Origin: Ginsengibacter hankyongi
GTDB lineage: Bacteria; Bacteroidota; Bacteroidia; Chitinophagales; Chitinophagaceae
Direction of reading: 5' to 3'
DNA: 64,000 bases
Assembly: GCF_008710285.1 (NCBI RefSeq)
Contig: NZ_VYQF01000005.1
Coordinates: forward strand, 1-64,000
Shown: positions 29,827 through 62,366 of the stretch, in pieces
How the letters are laid out: every line of letters starts with the position of its first letter
Numbering within the stretch: the first letter of the stretch is position 1
Notes under the pieces: model-generated
Seen by the model: the letters and a program-made list of their open reading frames with translations, nothing else
Told to the model about the DNA's origin: nothing
Database searches by the model: none
Program-made: the position numbers and the translations under genes

Positions 29827-30858
29827 ATGAAACAACATGATATATTTAAATACCTTCTTATTGATTATTTTTCTTCCACGCCTAAATATTTGCAACTGGC
29901 CAATTGTATCACCAAAGCAATAGGCGAGGGCATTTTAAAAGAAAATGATGTGCTTCCTTCTATAAACGAACTGAGCTTTGAATTTGATATATCACGTGAT
30001 ACTGCTGAAAAAGGTTATAAGCATTTAAAGAAAAATGGTACACTCAGCTCCGTGCCTGGCAAAGGTTACTTTGTAAAAAATGCTGAAGTAAATCAGCGGC
30101 TCAAAATCTTTTTATTATTTAATAAGTTAAGTGCCCATAAAAAAATTATTTATGATGCTTTTGTTGCATCATTGGGAGATCTCGCCGCAATTGATTTTTA
30201 TATATATAACAATGATTTTCTCTTTTTTAAAAAATTAATTACGAGTCAAAAAAACGATTATACGCATTATGTGATAATTCCCCATTTCACCGATGCATCG
30301 GAAAATGTTTCCGAGATAATTAATACCATTCCGAAGGACAAATTAATTTTAATGGATAAATTGGTACCCGGTGTGACGGGACAGTATGCAGCCGTATACG
30401 AAAATTTTGAAAAAGATATTTATGGCGCCCTGGTACAGGCCAACGGGCAGCTAAGTAAATACAATACTATTAAAATTATTTTCCCAAATTATACCTATCA
30501 TCCAAAAGAAATACTGGAAGGCTTTTATCGCTATTGCCAGGAATATGCTTTTAATTATAAGGTCGTTCAGAACCTGCATAAAGAACCGATAAAAGAAGGA
30601 GAGGTTTACATCAACCTCATGGAAAATGACCTGGTATTTCTTATTGAAAAAATACTAACTACTAAAATGAAACCGGGCAAACATGTAGGAGTTATTTCTT
30701 ACAATGAAACTCCTTTAAAAAAATTAATTCTTAATGGCATTACCACTATCTCTACTGATTTTCAAATGATGGGGGAAAAAGCTGCGAAATTGATTTTAGA
30801 ACGTTCTAACGAACACGTTGAGATACCTTTTTATTTAAGACTGCGGGCATCTTTGTAA
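29827..30858 (+). CDS. GntR-type regulator with sugar-sensing domain, probable rhamnose regulator
   Basis: 343 aa. The N-terminal 75 residues are a GntR winged helix-turn-helix: KYLQLANCITKAIGEGILKENDVLPSINELSFEFDISRDTAEKGYKHLKKNG, with GKGYFVK closing the wing. The remaining 260 residues look like a LacI/periplasmic-binding type sensor (DYTHYVIIPHF, KPGKHVGVISYNETPLKKLILNGITTISTDFQMMGEKAAKLIL). This GntR/PBP architecture is used in Bacteroidota for sugar operons, including rhamnose. It is transcribed away from the rhamnose operon, which supports control of that operon; the effector is probably rhamnose or an intermediate, by inference. Confidence 0.82.
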   Translation: MKQHDIFKYLLIDYFSSTPKYLQLANCITKAIGEGILKENDVLPSINELSFEFDISRDTAEKGYKHLKKNGTLSSVPGKGYFVKNAEVNQRLKIFLLFNKLSAHKKIIYDAFVASLGDLAAIDFYIYNNDFLFFKKLITSQKNDYTHYVIIPHFTDASENVSEIINTIPKDKLILMDKLVPGVTGQYAAVYENFEKDIYGALVQANGQLSKYNTIKIIFPNYTYHPKEILEGFYRYCQEYAFNYKVVQNLHKEPIKEGEVYINLMENDLVFLIEKILTTKMKPGKHVGVISYNETPLKKLILNGITTISTDFQMMGEKAAKLILERSNEHVEIPFYLRLRASL

Positions 30859-38839: not shown

Positions 38840-41227
38840 TCATTCAGTTCTCAAACTTTTCACCGGGTTTGCAACCGCTGCTTTTATGGCCTGGAAGCTA
38901 ACGGTAACTAGGGTTACCAACAATGCACCCGCTCCCGAAATAATAAATACCCACCATGAGATAGAAGTTCTGTAGTCATATTGCAATATCCATTGATGTA
39001 GATAATACCACGCTAATGGTATAGCAATGAGGCAGGAAATAATTACCAGTAATACAAACTCCCTGGAGAGCATTTTCCAAAGATTAAATACCGATGCACC
39101 CAGCACTTTGCGTACCCCAATTTCTTTTTTGCGCTGCTCAGCCACAAATGATGCAAGTCCGAATAAACCAAGGCAGGAAATAAAAATGGCAAGTATGGTA
39201 AAAAACGTTGCAAGATGGCCCACCCGCTGTTCATCGGCAAATTTCTTCGCATAGTCTTCATCGTTAAATGTATAGTCAAAAGGCGCTGAAGGATTATATT
39301 TTTTAAAAACTGTTTCTATTTTATTTAAGGCATCTTTTACAGGCACCCCTTGCTTTATTGCGACTGTTATTACATTGGCCCAGTTAGGGTTGTACAGAAA
39401 AACCGTTGGCTCAACAGGCTTATAGGGTGATTCCATAATCATATCTTTTATCACGCCAATAACTGTATATTTTTTATCGTTGAATTGAATGATCTGCCCT
39501 ACAATATCACGCTTCATTCCCACTTGTTTTACGGCAGATTCGTTTAATACAATTGCAAGGCTATCGGTTGCAAAATCTTTGGAAAAATCTCTTCCTTCTT
39601 TTATTTGCCAGCCAATGGTTTTACCAAAATCCTGCGTTACTGCAATCGTGCCGAAAGATGGCAGAGAGTTTGGATCCTTGCCTTGCCAATTAAACCCAAT
39701 TTGATTTGACCATACGCCGGTGGTGGGACTGGAAGATTCAGCCATATTATCAACAGCGCCTGAAGCAAGCAAATCATTTCGTAATGCGTCATAATGCCCA
39801 TACAAGTCCGGCGTTGACATATTGACGGTGATGAGCCCTTCCGTTCGGTAATTTACAGGCCTGTTTTTAGCAAATTGAATTTGCTTAAAAACGATGATGG
39901 TTCCAATGATTAAAGCAATGGAAAATGAAAATTGAATCACTACTAAAACTTTACGGGGCAGTGAGGCAAACTTACCTACACGAAATGTTCCCTTCAATAC
40001 CTTTATGGGTTCGAATTTGGAAAGATAAAATGCAGGATAACTCCCCGAGATTAATCCCGTAATAAGTGTGAATGTTAATGCTATCAGCCAGAATATCAGG
40101 CTGCCCCAGGGAAGTTGCATGCTTTTATCTGCCAGCTTATTAAAGAATGGCATTAATAAAAAAACCAACAATACTGCAAATATAAAAGACACGAATGCCA
40201 CTAAAACCGATTCGCTTAAAAACTGCCCGATTAACTGGCTACGTACTGAACCAACCGTTTTGCGGATGCCCACTTCTTTCGCTCTTTTCTCGCTTCGGGC
40301 CGTAGATAGGTTCATGAAATTTATACAGGCAAGCAGCAGTACAAAAACACCAATTATTGAAAACAACCAGATAAATTGTATGCGTCCTCCGGTGGCTTTA
40401 CCATTTTTAAAATCGCTGTATAGCCGCCATTTATCCATAGGAAAAAGCACTGCTTGTTCTCTGCCATCCGTAGCCGCAACCTTGTGAGCCATCACTATAT
40501 TTTTTATCTTCTCTGTTTCTTTGTCGATGTTTATATTATCTGCTACCTCAACAAACGTCTGCCACGAGTGGTTGTTCCACTGTGTTGCCGCATCTTTTAG
40601 CCATTGTTCAGTAGTTATATATTTGTTCCAGGGCAATAATAATTTGGTCTCGTACAAAGTAGTGTTATGAGGCAGATCTTCAAAAACGCCAGACACTTTA
40701 TAGTTATCTTTATTATCGAGCCGTATCATTTTATTAATAACATCTGTACTCCCAAACAACGCTTTTGCAAGTGAAGCATTTATTAATATTGATGAAGGAT
40801 CTGCCAGTCCATTTATGTTTCCCTTTATCATTCTTAATGAAAACATGGATGGAAAATTTGAATCAACCCACATACCACTACCGGTAATTTTTTTATCCTC
40901 AACTTTTAATACATGGCTGAAATTCCAGGATGCCATGGACACATTTTTAAAATCGCTTCCATACTTGCTGCGAAGCTCATTACCAATCGGCATACAAACG
41001 GCCTGCCCTGTTTCCATCTTGCCATCATTGTCTATAAACGTGGTCATTACCTGTGCGAGCTGGCCATGATGGGTGTGATATCTGTCGAAACTAACTTCAT
41101 CCCAAATCCATAACGCAATCAGCATTGCGACTGCCATACCTGTCGCGAGGCCAAGTATATTAATAATAGAATAGCCTTTGCTTTTAATAAGATTGCGCCA
41201 CGCAATTTTGAAATAATTTTTTAGCAT
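38840..41227 (-). CDS. FtsX/MacB-type ABC transporter permease
   Basis: 795 aa, the Bacteroidota double-permease type. It begins with LKNYFKIAWRNLIKSKGYSIINILGLATGMAVAMLI (first helix), followed by a large periplasmic MacB-like domain (about 45-285), three helices with RSEKRAKEVGIRKTVGSVRSQLIGQF between them, a second periplasmic domain, and a final three-helix FtsX domain (EQRKKEIGVRKVLGASVFNLWKML). No ATP-binding subunit is encoded nearby. Such proteins probably work in mechanotransmission or lipoprotein/small-molecule export with a separate ATPase; no substrate can be named. A paralogue of the same length lies at 59333-61720, and both share an unusual upstream regulatory arrangement. Confidence 0.85.
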   Translation of the reverse strand: MLKNYFKIAWRNLIKSKGYSIINILGLATGMAVAMLIALWIWDEVSFDRYHTHHGQLAQVMTTFIDNDGKMETGQAVCMPIGNELRSKYGSDFKNVSMASWNFSHVLKVEDKKITGSGMWVDSNFPSMFSLRMIKGNINGLADPSSILINASLAKALFGSTDVINKMIRLDNKDNYKVSGVFEDLPHNTTLYETKLLLPWNKYITTEQWLKDAATQWNNHSWQTFVEVADNINIDKETEKIKNIVMAHKVAATDGREQAVLFPMDKWRLYSDFKNGKATGGRIQFIWLFSIIGVFVLLLACINFMNLSTARSEKRAKEVGIRKTVGSVRSQLIGQFLSESVLVAFVSFIFAVLLVFLLMPFFNKLADKSMQLPWGSLIFWLIALTFTLITGLISGSYPAFYLSKFEPIKVLKGTFRVGKFASLPRKVLVVIQFSFSIALIIGTIIVFKQIQFAKNRPVNYRTEGLITVNMSTPDLYGHYDALRNDLLASGAVDNMAESSSPTTGVWSNQIGFNWQGKDPNSLPSFGTIAVTQDFGKTIGWQIKEGRDFSKDFATDSLAIVLNESAVKQVGMKRDIVGQIIQFNDKKYTVIGVIKDMIMESPYKPVEPTVFLYNPNWANVITVAIKQGVPVKDALNKIETVFKKYNPSAPFDYTFNDEDYAKKFADEQRVGHLATFFTILAIFISCLGLFGLASFVAEQRKKEIGVRKVLGASVFNLWKMLSREFVLLVIISCLIAIPLAWYYLHQWILQYDYRTSISWWVFIISGAGALLVTLVTVSFQAIKAAVANPVKSLRTE

Positions 41228-41476
41228 GAAGTAATTTTTACGTCTACGTTTTACTGATAAGTTTTGCTAATGATTCATTATTTGCCGATCCCTGTTCATT
41301 AATAGTCGAGTGGAATTGAACGCGGAGGTGGCCGGCATTATAAATAGAGTAATCGCTTTTGCATCTGAACCGATACCCCGATGCACTTTTAAAACAATTT
41401 ATAATCACCTGATAGAGTTTGGAATTAAAAGTTAGTAATGTCCCTCATTCAAAATTTGAAACTGTGTGAAAAACAT

Positions 41477-41493
41477 TTCAATCGCTATACCAA
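41477..41493 (-). promoter_or_regulatory. -24/-12-like promoter element of the FtsX permease gene
   Basis: Minus strand TTGGTAT-N5-TTGAA. The GG and GA dinucleotides are 10 bp apart, as in sigma-54 promoters (consensus TGGCAC-N5-TTGC), although the usual C after TTG is A. The same element occurs at 59136-59152 upstream of the paralogous permease. It lies 249 bp before the start codon. Confidence 0.5.
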
Positions 41494-41543
41494 CTTTGTA
41501 TGGCGTTGATAAAGAGTTATATATAATAATTTTTTAATAATAT

Positions 41544-41565
41544 AAGTGTTCAGAAACGAACACTT
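41544..41565 (-). promoter_or_regulatory. Perfect palindrome, candidate activator site
   Basis: AAGTGTTC (41544-41551) and GAACACTT (41558-41565), 8-bp arms, 6-bp spacer. Read on the minus strand the core is AGTGTTC-GTTTCT-GAACACT. It is 50 bp upstream of the -24/-12-like element. A near-identical copy with the same spacer and distance lies upstream of the other permease gene. Confidence 0.6.
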
Positions 41566-42393
41566 GTTTAAGGAAAGTGAACACCTGGGCACATATTGCG
41601 AAAGGGTTACTTTGAAAGTTATATGATAGTCGTTCGGTATTTGTTCGGTACTTGTTTGGTCGCCCTGACCGAACGGGTAATAATTACATATTGACCGCAT
41701 TTTGCTAAAGCCTGCAGGAAAAAGTCTCGGTGGTGATGATGTACCGCCAAATTACCCGGAAAGGGAAAAAATGCCTCCATATATTTTTGAAAATAAAATA
41801 ATACGTCAAGATTTTTTAATGGCAACGATGAAGGCGGCAGTAACGTTTTTTTGCTATTAGTTATTTACCCGCTAACGGATAGTGCTGAAAACTAACGGTG
41901 AAGCTTACTTGTAATAAATTCATCCCGGTAATAACTATGCCCCTTAAACGAAGGAAAACCCAGGGAAAACCCCGGGTAATGTGGGTGGTTCTTACATCGA
42001 ACAAATTAGTTCGCAACAAGGTGTTCTTTACAACGGCGAAATAATTTATATGGATTTAAAAACGAGGTGTAACAAAAATACTTTATAACAACAAAAAAAG
42101 CTATAGTATATATACGAGCCGGCTTCCGTAAAATTACCGGAGAGTTTTCTTTTTAGGTGATGGATATTTTTCTAAATTAATCTAATGCGTATCGAGTAGT
42201 TCGAATACGTTCACAATTTAAGTTAAAATCGATAACTTTTATGAAAGAACCCCGCAAAGCAAACTAACGGTTAGGCTACCCGAAATATAAATTGCCAATT
42301 GCTCCGTTTATAATGCTAAAAAAACTGGTGTAAGCTTCCCCAAAGTTCGTCCATTTAAAAGTTGAATAAATTTCTAACTTTAAATGGATAATT

Positions 42394-42660
42394 ATGAAAA
42401 AAACAAGATTCACAGAAACACAAATTGTAAAGGCGATCCAGGAACATGAGAATGGCCGGGATGCCAAAGACATTTGCAGTGAGTTGCAAATTACTACGGC
42501 AGCATTTTATAAATGGCGCCAGCGCTATGGAGGCATGGATGTGAAGGAACTGAAGCGGGTAAAAGAACTCGAAGATGAGAATAGCCGCCTCAAGCGTATG
42601 TATGCCAATTTAAGTTTAGTGCATGAAGCCTTAAAGGATGCGGTAGCAAAAAAACTTTAA
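42394..42660 (+). CDS. IS3-family transposase OrfA
   Basis: 88 aa. A helix-turn-helix of the Transposase_8 type, [43 protein letters not shown], is followed by a leucine-zipper-like coil ([32 protein letters not shown]). It binds the terminal repeats. The stop codon overlaps the OrfB start (TAATG), and the frame ends in a run of seven A at 42648-42654 that reads as A-AAA-AAA, a good slippery site for -1 frameshifting into OrfB. Both products of the usual IS3 scheme, OrfA alone and an OrfAB fusion, can therefore be expected. Confidence 0.92.
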
Positions 42661-43508
42661 TGCCTGACGAGAAAGGCAGCTTGGCTGAGCACATGATTGA
42701 AGAACATGGAATCAGTCAACGCCAGGCATATAAAGCAGTAAGCCTGCCCCGCAGCTCAGGAAGATATAAGCGCAAACCCCAAGCGGATGAACCGGTTATT
42801 GATGCGTTGAATAAGGTGATAGAACAACGCCCTTCCATTGGCTTTTGGCAAAGCTTTAAACGATTAAGACGAAAGGGTTTTGTATGGAATCATAAACGTG
42901 TATACCGTGTTTATACAGGGCTTCAGTTAAGCATCAGGCGCAGAAGTAAGAAGCGTTTGCCTGCAAGAGCGAAGCAGGCTTTATATCAGCCTGAACAGAT
43001 CAACCAGGTATGGTCAATAGACTTTATGAATGATACACTGTGGGATGGAAGAAAGTTCAGATTATTAAACATTATTGATGATTACAACAGGGAGGTATTA
43101 GCTATTGAAGCTGATACGTCACTACCAACAACAAGAGTAATAAGAACACTGGAATACTTAAAAGAGTTCAGAGGATTACCGGATATGATAAGAGTAGATA
43201 ACGGGCCGGAATTTATATCGCACAAACTGGATCTGTGGTGCAGGGATAATAAAATAACATTGGTATTTATACAGCCCGGAAAGCCTATGCAGAATGGTTA
43301 TGTGGAACGATGTAATGGCAATATCAGAAAAGAATTATTAAACGTTTATGTGTTTACCTCATTATCAGAAGTGAGACAAAAAGCAGAAGAATGGATGCAG
43401 GATTATAATTATGAAAGGCCGCATAAAGCCTTAGGCTATGTGCCACCAAAATCTTATAATCCATACCCTATAAAACTAAAAAACCTAAATGAGTTTTTAT
43501 ACTTTTGA
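42660..43508 (+). CDS. IS3-family transposase OrfB, DDE catalytic subunit
   Basis: 282 aa with an N-terminal HTH_21 region (LAEHMIEEHGISQRQAYKAV, RRKGFVWNHKRVYRVY) and an rve integrase core. The DDE residues are visible in QVWSIDFMND (first Asp), MIRVDNGPEF (second Asp) and NGYVERCNGNIRKELL (Glu), with HKALGYVPPKSY at the end. The frame is unbroken, so the transposase looks functional. It lies in the -1 frame relative to OrfA and begins in a TAATG overlap, so it can be made by re-initiation, by -1 slippage on the A7 run, or both. Confidence 0.93.
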   Translation: MPDEKGSLAEHMIEEHGISQRQAYKAVSLPRSSGRYKRKPQADEPVIDALNKVIEQRPSIGFWQSFKRLRRKGFVWNHKRVYRVYTGLQLSIRRRSKKRLPARAKQALYQPEQINQVWSIDFMNDTLWDGRKFRLLNIIDDYNREVLAIEADTSLPTTRVIRTLEYLKEFRGLPDMIRVDNGPEFISHKLDLWCRDNKITLVFIQPGKPMQNGYVERCNGNIRKELLNVYVFTSLSEVRQKAEEWMQDYNYERPHKALGYVPPKSYNPYPIKLKNLNEFLYF

Positions 43509-58651: not shown

Positions 58652-59065
58652 AAAACAAATAAGTTTAAGAATAAATTTTCGTGAGAACATAAACTTTGAT
58701 GTCAAATGTAATTGTAAATTTTAAAAGAATTGGTGGCGAAGCAGTCATTTATAAAATATATGAAATTGATAATGCTTGAAGTGTCTTTTGAATTAAGACA
58801 TATATCCACCAAAGTCGACTCTTTGAAGGCTCTGACAATGAAGCATATTTATTTTTCAGCCAATTGCATGATTTCTTCTGATTTTTTTATTTTGCAATAT
58901 TCTGCTTTATAAGTTTAAAGTCAATTTCAAATTCTTTCCTTGCTTTAGTCGATTGATTTCTTCCCGGCGTATGTAGGGAAATTCTTTTCCGTTGTTTTGA
59001 ATAAAGGTGCTTACAATGCAGGACAATGAAGCTTTTACAACTATATTGTCCGCTTTATAAAAATG

Positions 59066-59085
59066 AGTGTTCGTTTCCGAACAGT
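59066..59085 (+). promoter_or_regulatory. Palindrome, candidate activator site (second copy)
   Basis: AGTGTTC-GTTTCC-GAACAGT. The inner arms TGTTCG/CGAACA are perfect around TTTC. It matches the palindrome at 41545-41564, read toward that permease gene, in 18 of 20 positions including the spacer, and lies 50 bp upstream of the -24/-12-like element. Confidence 0.6.
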
Positions 59086-59135
59086 GAAAATTAAAATTTC
59101 TTTTCTTAAATATTAAATATCAAAGCGATATGGGA

Positions 59136-59152
59136 TTGGTATGAAGGTTGAA
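59136..59152 (+). promoter_or_regulatory. -24/-12-like promoter element of the second FtsX permease gene
   Basis: TTGGTAT-N5-TTGAA, the same as the element at 41477-41493 on the other strand. GG and GA are separated by 10 bp as in sigma-54 promoters, with A instead of the usual C after TTG. It is 58 bp before the remnant start at 59211 and 180 bp before the intact permease start. Confidence 0.5.
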
Positions 59153-59210
59153 AATGTTTTATGGGGTTATTTTTGTCCGGGATATTTTAATCCACTTAAT
59201 TTAATCCATC

Positions 59211-59332: not shown

Positions 59333-61720
59333 ATGTTTAAAAATTATTTCAAAACTGCATGGCGCAATTTATTACGAGGCAAAGGTTTTTCCTTCATAAA
59401 TATTACGGGGCTTGCCATTGGTATGGCTGGCGCAATACTTATTATGATGTGGCTGCAAAATGAAATAAGTTTTGATAAATTCCATACAAACAGAAACAAT
59501 TTATATGAAGTGTATACTCTAACAAGTAATACAGACGGGCATTCAAGAGCAGTAAATGCGACTTCACAACCACTTGGTCCTGCTTTGAAACAAAATTATC
59601 CTGAGATCGCTGCATTTACGCGTGTGTGGGATCTAAGAAACTGGCTTTTATCTGCCAATAATAAAAGCCTTACGGCTACTCACGGTTTTATTGTTGACAC
59701 TTCTTTTTTGCAAATGTTTAGTTTTCCGTTGATTAAAGGCAATGCAACGGCGCCGTTTAGAAATAGCCATAGCATTATTATTACCCAGGATCTTGCAAAA
59801 AAATTATTTGGGGATGATGATCCGGTAGGAAAAATTATTAAAACAGAAAACACAGATAATTTCACGGTAACAGGTATATTAAAAAACCCACCGGTAAACA
59901 CACGCTTCCAGTTCGATTACCTGCTGCCATGGTCTTTCCGTGATACGCAAATTGATGGCTATGCAAATGAAACTGAAAGATGGCTTAGTAATAATACGTC
60001 GACGTTTGTATTATTAAAACCAAATATGAATGTAGCCGCACTGAACAAAAAAATCAGCGATATCACCAGGCGTTATACCGGCCGCAATGATGTATGGACA
60101 CATTTTCTTTTTTCCTTAAACAGGTGGTATCTTTATTCTGAATTTAAAGATGGCAAATCGGTCGGTGGGCGCATTGAAACAGTTCGCGTGTTTGCCATTA
60201 TTGCAGCATTCATTTTATTAATAGCCTGCATCAATTTTATAAATCTAAGCACGGCGAGAAGTGAAAAACGTGCAAAAGAAGTCGGCATTCGAAAAGTGAT
60301 AGGTGCGGGCAGAAGTTTACTGATTGGCCAGTTTATTGTGGAAGCCTTTTTAACTGCATGTATCTCGGGGGCAATTGCTTTAGTGATTGTACAACTTGTA
60401 TTACCTTCATTTGATACACTTATCGATACACAGCTTTCCATTCCATATAATAATTTTTATTTCTGGCTTATTGCATTCGGTTTTATTATAATCACAAGTT
60501 TATTAGCGGGAAGTTACCCGGCCTTTTATCTTTCCTCGTTTAAACCGGTTAGCATATTTAAAAAGCAGTTCAAAAAAATTAATACCGTTATATCGCCCAG
60601 AAAAATTTTAGTCGTAGTTCAATTTACGTTTGCTATTATCCTAATCATATCAACCATAATAATTCGTAACCAAATTGTGTATGCAAAAGACAGGGACAAA
60701 GGCTATTCAAATAACAATTTGGTACAGGTAAATTTTGCTGGCGATATCGAGAAAAATTATGCGTTAATAAAACAGGATTTATTAGATGAAGGCATAGCAT
60801 CTTCCGTAACAAAAAATATGGGGGGAATAACAGAAGGTGGAGCCCATACGTGGGGTTTACGGTGGCAAAATGAAAATTCTGCAGACACCAACACAACCAT
60901 TACTTTATATAGTGCAGATGCGGATTGGATAAAGACTGCAGGATTGCATTTAATTGCAGGAAGAGATATTGATATTTATAAATATCCGGCAGATAGCAAT
61001 TCAGTTGTGCTGAATGAAACTGCGGTTAAGTTGATGGGTTTTAAAGATCCGATTGGTCAAACTATTCTTGAACCTTTCTATCATACCACTTTGCATGTAG
61101 TTGGTGTGGTGAAAGATTATATTATTGGCTCGCCTTACGATGAAGTTCCGCCAACGGTAATACAAGGTCCGCGTGCCTGGTTTACTGCAATGCACATTAA
61201 ATTTAATCCTGCACTGTCAACGGCGAATGCACTTGCGAAAACAGAGTTGATTTTTAAAAAATATAATCCTGCTTATCCGTTCGATTACAAATTTGTTGAC
61301 CAGCAATATGCTGCTCAGTTTGATAATGAACAACGCACAAAAACAATGGCAGGCTTGTTTGCAGGTTTAGCTATTTTCATTTCATGCCTTGGTTTATTTG
61401 GTTTATCTGCCTACATTGCTGAAAGCCGGGTAAAAGAAATTGGGTTACGAAAAGTGTTGGGCGCATCCGTTACAAATATTGCGAAATTATTATCGTTCGA
61501 TTTTGTAAAGCTCGTAATTGTTTCCATTGTTATTGCTATTCCTATTGCATACTATGCTATGAACAAATGGCTGCAGGATTACACTTATAGAATAAATATT
61601 GGATGGGGAATATTTGCAGTGGCAGGATTATTATCCATTATAATTGCATTGGCAACGGTGAGTTTCCAGGCAATAAAAGCAGCGGTTGCGAATCCGGTGA
61701 ATGGTTTGAGAAATGAATAA
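59333..61720 (+). CDS. FtsX/MacB-type ABC transporter permease, paralogue of 38840-41227
   Basis: 795 aa, the same length and layout as the other permease: first helix in FKTAWRNLLRGKGFSFINITGLAIGMAGAILIMMW, a large periplasmic MacB-like domain, a first FtsX block with RSEKRAKEVGIRKVIGAGRSLLIGQF, a second periplasmic domain, and a last FtsX block with SRVKEIGLRKVLGASVTNIAKLL. It ends in FQAIKAAVANPVNGLRNE, also shared with the paralogue. No ATPase gene is near. It is followed at 55 bp by a third, truncated member, so a tandem array is decaying here. The shared promoter architecture with the first paralogue suggests they respond to the same signal. Confidence 0.85.
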   Translation: MFKNYFKTAWRNLLRGKGFSFINITGLAIGMAGAILIMMWLQNEISFDKFHTNRNNLYEVYTLTSNTDGHSRAVNATSQPLGPALKQNYPEIAAFTRVWDLRNWLLSANNKSLTATHGFIVDTSFLQMFSFPLIKGNATAPFRNSHSIIITQDLAKKLFGDDDPVGKIIKTENTDNFTVTGILKNPPVNTRFQFDYLLPWSFRDTQIDGYANETERWLSNNTSTFVLLKPNMNVAALNKKISDITRRYTGRNDVWTHFLFSLNRWYLYSEFKDGKSVGGRIETVRVFAIIAAFILLIACINFINLSTARSEKRAKEVGIRKVIGAGRSLLIGQFIVEAFLTACISGAIALVIVQLVLPSFDTLIDTQLSIPYNNFYFWLIAFGFIIITSLLAGSYPAFYLSSFKPVSIFKKQFKKINTVISPRKILVVVQFTFAIILIISTIIIRNQIVYAKDRDKGYSNNNLVQVNFAGDIEKNYALIKQDLLDEGIASSVTKNMGGITEGGAHTWGLRWQNENSADTNTTITLYSADADWIKTAGLHLIAGRDIDIYKYPADSNSVVLNETAVKLMGFKDPIGQTILEPFYHTTLHVVGVVKDYIIGSPYDEVPPTVIQGPRAWFTAMHIKFNPALSTANALAKTELIFKKYNPAYPFDYKFVDQQYAAQFDNEQRTKTMAGLFAGLAIFISCLGLFGLSAYIAESRVKEIGLRKVLGASVTNIAKLLSFDFVKLVIVSIVIAIPIAYYAMNKWLQDYTYRINIGWGIFAVAGLLSIIIALATVSFQAIKAAVANPVNGLRNE

Positions 61721-61775: not shown

Positions 61776-62366
61776 ATGGTTAAGAATTTTTTAAAAACAG
61801 CCCTCCGTAACCTTTCTAAAAATAGAGGATATAGTTTTCTCAACATCTTTGGTTTAGCTATCGGTATTGCGTGCGCAGGCTTTATATTTTTATGGGTAGA
61901 AGATGAAATGAATTTTGATGGCAATAATGCAAATAAAAGCCGCATCTATCTTGTAAAAACAAATGATAGAGTTGATGATGGCGTATTCACACATTCTTCA
62001 ACCGCTGGGCCGATGGCTGCTGCATTGCAGGCGAATATACCCGGCATTGCAAACACCTGCCGCATAACTGAGGGAGGTACTTCATTTTTATTTACCATGG
62101 GCGATAAAGCAGTGAATGCTTCAGGGAAATATGTAGAACCTTCTTTTTTCAGCATGTTTACTTTGCCATTTGCTCAGGGCAATGCAGAAAGCGCTTTTTC
62201 ACAGTTACATTCTATCGTACTCACACAAAAAACGACAACTAAATTTTTTGGTGATGAAAAGGAGAATTATGTTTCTAACAAGATTGAACAAAATGCTGAA
62301 TGCATGCAACGCGCTATGCCATTAAAATCAGGACGAAGTGATGAGAAATTTTGTAATGTAGGTTGA
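61776..62366 (+). pseudogene. Truncated FtsX/MacB-type permease
   Basis: 196 codons against about 800 expected. The N-terminus is normal, KNFLKTALRNLSKNRGYSFLNIFGLAIGIACAGFIFLWVEDEM, and the periplasmic domain is recognisable through SFFSMFTLPFAQGN and SIVLTQKTTTKFFGDE. Immediately after this, the expected family text (about VIGKTI, a nucleotide-binding-like turn) is missing and the last 25 residues are unrelated, ending at 62366. Nothing from the remaining 600 codons is found downstream. It probably shares the transcript of the preceding gene. It is a 5' fragment with no chance of transport function. Confidence 0.8.

Follow-up and report, generated by a model that had tools for sequence, protein, structure and literature searches.

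A candidate sigma-54 promoter module with tandem upstream operators before FtsX-type permease genes of Ginsengibacter hankyongi

Two permease genes in the window and the elements upstream of them

The window, i.e., the whole stretch of 64,000 nucleotides analysed here, corresponds to bases 1-64000 of contig 29 in the 5.5 Mb, 33-contig genome of Ginsengibacter hankyongi. It harbors two genes for permeases of 795 aa, one on the minus strand (38840-41227) and one on the plus strand (59333-61720). In both products, the MacB_PCD (PF12704) and FtsX (PF02687) domains are found in two stretches each. Directly behind the second permease gene lies a cut-off permease frame of 196 aa (61776-62366, plus strand), presumably co-transcribed with it, which matches only the N-terminal, MacB_PCD part of a permease. 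This frame looks like a truncated permease copy, and its best match, at about 50% identity over 177 residues, is the permease at C1:635256.

A similar series of elements precedes each of the two genes. Upstream of the first, the palindrome AGTGTTC-GTTTCT-GAACACT (AGTGTTCGTTTCTGAACACT, 41564-41545 on the minus strand), a candidate proximal operator for an activator, is separated by 51 bp from a -24/-12 element (TTGGTATAGCGATTGAA, 41493-41477, minus strand), the putative promoter, whose transcription start is predicted near 41466. An IHF-like element (TATCAACGCCATA, 41499-41511, minus strand) is located between the two, 20 bp before the GG, and a candidate distal half-site for the activator (TGTTCACTTT, 41574-41583, minus strand) is found 21 bp upstream of the proximal operator. 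The corresponding elements of the second gene, all on the plus strand, are a candidate distal half-site (TGTCCGCTTT, 59047-59056), a candidate proximal operator with the palindrome AGTGTTC-GTTTCC-GAACAGT (AGTGTTCGTTTCCGAACAGT, 59066-59085), an IHF-like element (TATCAAAGCGATA, 59118-59130) and a -24/-12 element (TTGGTATGAAGGTTGAA, 59136-59152), with 50 bp between the palindrome and the last and a start predicted near 59163. The TATCAA stretch is named IHF-like on the basis of WATCAANNNNTTR, which we take to be the IHF consensus. About 1.1 kb upstream of the first of these modules and divergent from it, an integrase-core (rve) transposase-like protein is encoded at 42660-43508 on the plus strand, which suggests a mobile element beside the first permease locus.

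The palindromes and the -24/-12 elements had been pointed out in a sequence-only reading of this DNA, in which the TATCAA element was not mentioned. Both motifs are real at these coordinates: their joint arrangement occurs twice in the window and in none of 300 dinucleotide-preserving shuffles of it. The -24/-12-like element alone is weak evidence, because four are found in the window with at most one mismatch and about one is expected by chance.

Copies of the module in the genome and the genes behind them

A search of the genome for the palindrome followed, after 48-62 bp, by TTGGTATN5TTG returned six matches, and the reversed control none. Two further copies, both with GGACA as the right arm of the palindrome and one of them also with TTGGTAC, came from reading upstream of permeases and of -24/-12 matches, so that eight modules were found in total. 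The shuffles and the reversed-pattern controls rule out a chance origin of the module, and a random distribution in the genome, set beforehand as the outcome that would count against the proposal, is not seen, with seven of the eight modules linked to permeases.

All eight copies share one layout: TGTYCRYTT, a distance of 20-22 bp, TGTTC-N6-GRACA, then TATCAA, then TTGGTAY-N5-TTGAAA. The TGTYCRYTT half-site lies 21 bp upstream of the palindrome in six copies, and 20 and 22 bp in one each. The palindrome begins 68 or 69 bp before TTGG in every copy (70-71 bp from TGTTC to GG), and all have TATCAA at positions -20 to -15 relative to the first G as well as TTGGTAY-N3-GRTTGAAA with the spacing GG-N10-GA. 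Within the 28 bp before GG, TATCAA is the sole long invariant run, and other spacer bases are not conserved. Averaged over the 28 pairs of modules, ungapped identity amounts to 26% in the upstream flank and 30% in the downstream flank, to 41% in the spacer behind the palindrome, and to 74% over the segment that runs from TATCAA through the -12 box; for the window pair, the respective values are 20, 27, 45 and 65%. Thus, the earlier view that motif, spacer, orientation and distance are conserved in unlike surroundings holds for the boxes, their orientation and their distance, and for the divergent flanks. It does not hold for the spacer beyond TATCAA, nor for the six inner bases of the palindrome, which are alike in the window pair (GTTTCT/GTTTCC) and not in all of the other six copies.

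The spacing of GG and GA, from which a sigma-54 promoter had been suspected, is retained in all eight modules. Each of them carries the -24 TGGYAY and -12 TTG boxes with GG-N10-GN of a sigma-54-dependent promoter, and each has A in place of C at -12, with otherwise textbook spacing. C is the commonest -12 base in known sigma-54 promoters and not an absolute requirement, and the promoter is therefore filed as sigma-54-like with one departure. The palindrome is also placed like an activator site, as had been proposed. Sites for sigma-54 activators usually lie about 80-150 bp upstream of the start; here the centre of the palindrome is near -88 and that of the half-site at -111 to -114 from the predicted start. 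Taken singly, the motifs are poorer markers. The bare palindrome, tried and rejected as a marker, has 14 sites in the genome (reversed, 4), six of them in modules; it is unspecific, because seven of the eight non-module sites read TGTTCC on at least one strand. Bare TTGGYAYN5TTGMW has 23 sites (reversed, 7), eight of them in modules.

A permease gene or array follows seven of the eight modules, namely those at C1:559069, C1:693284, C4:30111, C4:75601 and C4:106659 and both modules of the window. For the gene at C4:30133, the listed frame begins ahead of the likely ATG at 30166. The eighth module (C1:545885) precedes the gene of an ABC ATPase, whose nearest profiles are DarD/LolD, followed by that of a TolC-type outer-membrane protein. 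Furthermore, a related operator, GTATCNAAANCGNACA, has four exact sites in the genome and none for the reversed pattern. Three of them precede permease units (C1:633693, C1:2221766 and C28:9367), and the fourth (C1:640164) precedes a unit of adaptor, ATPase and permease genes. These operators head only units without the palindromic module, or the adaptor unit; at C1:2221766, no -24 (GGYAY) box is recognised.

In total, 23 permeases of the window type, with frames of about 790-840 aa, were counted in the genome, and the other 21 are also retrieved by similarity to the window pair at 29-53% identity. If units are predicted as adjacent genes on the same strand, all 23 fall into 11 presumed units, each headed by the module or by the GTATCNAAANCGNACA operator. 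A 346-aa frame amid the permeases of one array (C1:552957-553997, minus strand) has no Pfam match at E 0.001. Against the 23 permeases, the 310,361 bases covered, i.e., the stretches around the units and around the other sigma-54 activators, window included, yield as homologues of the linked proteins (E ≤ 1e-5) a single adaptor, a single TolC-type channel and two ATPases that share 50% identity; further ATPases may be encoded elsewhere in the genome. The claim of a permease regulon is thus borne out computationally: seven modules precede permeases and the other permease units have the related operator, and ATPase, adaptor and TolC-type genes belong to it as well.

Other MacB_PCD genes were rejected as members of the regulon: for the six tested, neither the module nor the related-operator motif was found within 1,500 bp upstream. 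Five of these have frames of 410-430 aa, and the sixth (L033), of 863 aa, is distant from the window permeases (21% identity, E 2e-5). Judged by eye, an ABC ATPase gene lies just upstream of it. The contrast set left out the genes at C1:166052, C1:1072200 and C12:366077 (frames of 412-425 aa).

The related operator in relatives and the activator linked to it

The activator gene that may connect these units lies beside the adaptor unit. It is located at C1:640363-641709, is adjoined by the gene of a histidine kinase (HATPase_c), and the pair is divergent from the adaptor gene. The product consists of a receiver (PF00072), an AAA+ sigma-54 activation domain (PF00158) and a Fis-type HTH (PF02954), which, together with a GAFTGA-type loop (GSFTGA) and the adjacent kinase gene, places it among the NtrC-family response regulators. 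Accordingly, the orphan NtrC-type gene anticipated in the sequence-only reading is not what is found, since the likely activator has a kinase gene next to it. The rpoN gene that the same reading called for does exist: one was found, with three sigma-54 Pfam domains and the box ARRTVAKYRE, which we take to be the canonical rpoN box. Five strong sigma-54 activators are encoded in the genome, i.e., four besides the adaptor-linked one, and genes homologous to those for the permease, ATPase, adaptor and TolC-type channel are absent from the stretches of 14-15 kb around these four. One of the sigma-54-type response regulators, at C23:46561, adjoins genes (C23:48257-53935) that resemble, by eye, those for Kdp potassium transport and KdpD.

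The related operator and the activator co-occur in the family. Among 195 genomes of Chitinophagaceae, the activator, called at E ≤ 1e-100, is present in 97, with an identity of at least 63% in 93 of these, and the operator pattern GTATCRAAANCGNACA is likewise present in 97 (310 sites; reversed, 20). Both are found in 91 genomes and neither in 92, with six that have the activator only and six the operator only, i.e., 12 of 195 are discordant (Fisher p 4e-40, a value uncorrected for phylogeny). The operator-only genomes have one site each, near the rate of the reversed control (9 matches in the 98 activator-free genomes). At least one sigma-54 activator occurs in all 195 genomes (E ≤ 1e-40), and the link is therefore to the adaptor-linked activator and not to sigma-54 in general. 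Among 80 named activator loci, some of them from Niastella and Segetibacter, the sequence extends 400 bp or more upstream of the activator gene in 75. In 66 of these 75 an operator lies within 1,500 bp upstream, pointing away from the gene; nine are without it, and the opposite orientation was never found. In 17 of 20 relatives read in more detail, the operator stands before the adaptor gene. In two of the 20 (L145 and L152), no adaptor unit adjoins the activator and kinase genes, and in another (L156) the adaptor is present but an exact operator is not.

The activators themselves are uniform where the operator would be contacted. A set of 110 activator loci (L109-L138 and L221-L300), which overlap as the same genomes occur in two collections, gave 105 readable loci and 87 distinct sequences. 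The recognition helix reads TALYRR in 105 of 105, in keeping with a single conserved half-site. The sigma-54 contact loop is GAFTDA in 73 of the 87 sequences, GSFTGA in nine (this genome's included), GAFTGA in three and GSFTDA in two. This variant contact loop coincides with promoters in which C at -12 is not conserved, as described below.

For promoter architecture, 16 genomes were chosen from the family set, 12 with the activator and four without; the related operator was found in 12 of 12 and 0 of 4, respectively (64 sites; reversed, 3). Together with the four sites of this genome, 62 of the 64 were read, giving 66; the two left out (G071 C11:894720 and G085 C1:3583338) are adaptor-gene sites already seen elsewhere. 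The next gene codes for a permease at 43 sites, an adaptor at 10 and an ATPase at 4, and is unassigned at 9. At 54 of the 57 gene-assigned sites, the distance between the operator and a GGYAY box is 68-71 or 89-93 bp; the chance expectation is 0.07 per promoter. The three without such a box (L107, L197 and L198), one of which is C1:2221766 of this genome, all precede permeases. The two distance classes are about 21 bp apart, as would be seen if the pattern matched the proximal member of a tandem pair in some promoters and the distal member in others. At the nearer-class sites, an extra half-site [CA][GA]NACA is found upstream in 25 of 41 (9% expected; none in 16), at an offset of 22 bp (23 sites) or 20 bp (2 sites). 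In the congener G045, five GTATC-type operators, all of the 89-90 bp class, lie within 18 kb (contig 48, 293-18069); the gene that follows encodes a permease for four of them and an ATPase for the fifth.

Base frequencies were taken from 54 promoters, after six boxed sites without an assigned gene and six without a box had been dropped; for one promoter (L217), the table used a box at 103 bp and the distance scan found one in the 89-93 bp class. The -24 box mostly reads TGGCAY, and T is found at +10 in 52 of 54. A looser TATCAA occurs at the same offset as in the modules (T 37, A 26, T 22, C 24, A 30, A 42). At the -12 C column, the counts are A 15, C 13, G 11 and T 15, i.e., C is not conserved. 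A for C, noted earlier as unusual, is thus constant in the eight modules, and the missing C is also a feature of the wider regulon. The TTG lies one base early in 21 promoters, at its textbook place in nine and at neither in 24, so that the spacing in a large part of the family is not that of textbook sigma-54 promoters.

Proposed regulation by one activator, the alternatives and known systems

The module and its geometry, the genes downstream, the conserved related operator and its co-occurrence with the activator make it probable that each module is a promoter for sigma-54 (RpoN) whose tandem operators, located upstream, serve a single two-component response regulator, the activator of an efflux regulon. 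The neighbouring histidine kinase would sense a signal, probably an envelope-acting toxic compound, and probably phosphorylate the activator. The activator would bind TGTNCG half-sites, i.e., the palindrome at about -88 and the single half-site at about -112, and contact RNA polymerase-sigma-54 at -24/-12, and bending of the DNA at the TATCAA element may help this contact. The permeases, ATPases, adaptor and channel would then rise together. The regulon would correspond to a tripartite ABC exporter family in which 23 permeases, encoded in 11 presumed units, are accompanied by two ATPases, an adaptor and a TolC-type channel.

A rival possibility is that the palindromic operator is bound by another sigma-54 activator, and the GTATC-type alone belongs to the adaptor-linked one. 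In its favour, the two forms differ, one being a 16-bp palindrome and the other a 17-bp asymmetric site, and they head different units; four other strong sigma-54 activators are available in the genome. In addition, the exact window-type pattern, which finds six of the eight copies of this genome, is present in none of the 194 other family genomes, two congeners included and many with the activator, and therefore the palindromic form itself is without comparative support. Against this, both forms have common half-sites, similar tandem phasing (20-22 bp), an equal distance to GG and the same class of targets, and in one relative (L155) the palindromic form is the second site in the adaptor promoter, beside a GTATC-type operator. 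No exporter-gene homologue lies around the other four activators, as described above, one of which has the Kdp-like genes as neighbors. On balance, a second activator is unlikely, and the shared half-sites, the geometry and the case of L155 suggest that a single activator reads both forms.

Or the palindrome may be the operator of a repressor, since such palindromes are also typical for repressors, and TTGGTAT may be part of a housekeeping (sigma-A) promoter. The second window module has a TAnnTTTG box, the -7 box of Bacteroidota, 32 bp after TTGG. This box is missing from the other seven modules between 30 bp before and 60 bp after TTGG, and with one in eight the housekeeping promoter was rejected. 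An operator centred near -88 is far for simple repression, and the related operator is genetically linked to and co-occurs with a sigma-54 activator, which leaves this alternative very improbable. A third alternative holds the modules to be without conserved function, copied recently together with the permease genes as these were amplified; the tandem permease arrays and a permease remnant in one leader might suggest this. It is already disfavoured by flanks only about 26-30% identical beside nearly invariant boxes, and with one module heading an ATPase/TolC unit and the geometry recurring in relatives it hardly deserves consideration.

A sigma-54 promoter under one activator is well in line with systems of the NtrC, ZraR and AtoC type. 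The -24/-12 element, operators about 90-110 bp before the predicted start, an IHF-like site between them, and a receiver-AAA+-Fis HTH activator beside a histidine kinase are all of that kind. Different from those systems are the absence of C at -12, the mixed TTG spacing in relatives, the loops (GSFTGA here, GAFTDA in most relatives) and the targets, which are repertoires of ABC permeases. For the loops, GAFTDA and GSFTGA are among the variants reported to keep activity in a Desulfovibrio vulgaris study (PMC4641369).

On the target side, the profiles resemble those of MacAB-TolC and the darobactin exporter DarBCD, with an adaptor, a LolD/DarD-like ATPase, an FtsX-type permease and a TolC-type channel. 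One difference is the ratio: in the stretches read, a single adaptor and two ATPases go with 23 permeases. The window permeases lack an ATPase domain, unlike the fused ATPase-permease MacB, and score 78.7 and 48.4 bits against a cut-off of 966 for the MacB equivalog PRK10535. Scores are also below the cut-offs for DarB (window permeases, 120 and 150 vs 700), DarC (adaptor, 160 vs 450) and DarD (ATPase of the module unit, 251 vs 375), and the adaptor exceeds that of the RND_mfp subfamily TIGR01730 (128.4 vs 94.9 bits). The closest in layout is ADOP (duplicated permease, TIGR03434), whose two-domain arrangement extends over the full length of the window permeases, with 283 and 264 bits below its cut-off of 622.

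Sigma-54 has been connected with such permeases before. Matrix-predicted sigma-54 promoters are enriched before FtsX-like permeases (COG0577) in Bacteroidia, which the authors call first evidence for the link (PMC12316311; PLoS One 2025). In its passages on these permeases, that paper mentions neither an activator nor an operator nor the layout of a regulon, unlike the present case, and the term Chitinophag* does not occur in its main text. In Flavobacterium psychrophilum, -24/-12 sigma-54 promoters are described, one operon having been tested by promoter mutagenesis; the targets named there are chaperones, a protease, gliding and envelope genes, different from those here, and neither permease nor ABC transporter occurs in the main text (PMC9723704). 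As far as these sources go, the statistical link between sigma-54 and permeases is known, and the activator, operators and regulon are apparently new; no description of the three was found in the openly accessible literature, which is not proof of absence.

Large sets of partnerless FtsX/MacB-type permeases are frequently found in Bacteroidota of this kind, and most of them have no assigned role. The activator-kinase pair, the defined operators and the bounded list of targets make the puzzle of the 23 permeases testable, and if the signal of the one kinase is identified, the whole exporter set should respond. A bolder picture, offered only tentatively, is that one activator raises 23 interchangeable permeases sharing the two ATPases, adaptor and channel, with operators and promoters fixed as permease genes turn over, and with the -12 box without C going together with the variant loop. 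If so, a single engine would serve many substrate-specific heads, all of them raised by the cell simultaneously. At C4:106659, a 49-residue remnant of the C-terminal part of another permease (61% identity, between 106676 and 106998) lies in the leader, between the promoter and the intact gene, which hints that genes have been replaced downstream of a promoter that stayed in place. The 54 aligned related promoters without a conserved C at -12 are also material on how sigma-54 promoters are recognised in this phylum.
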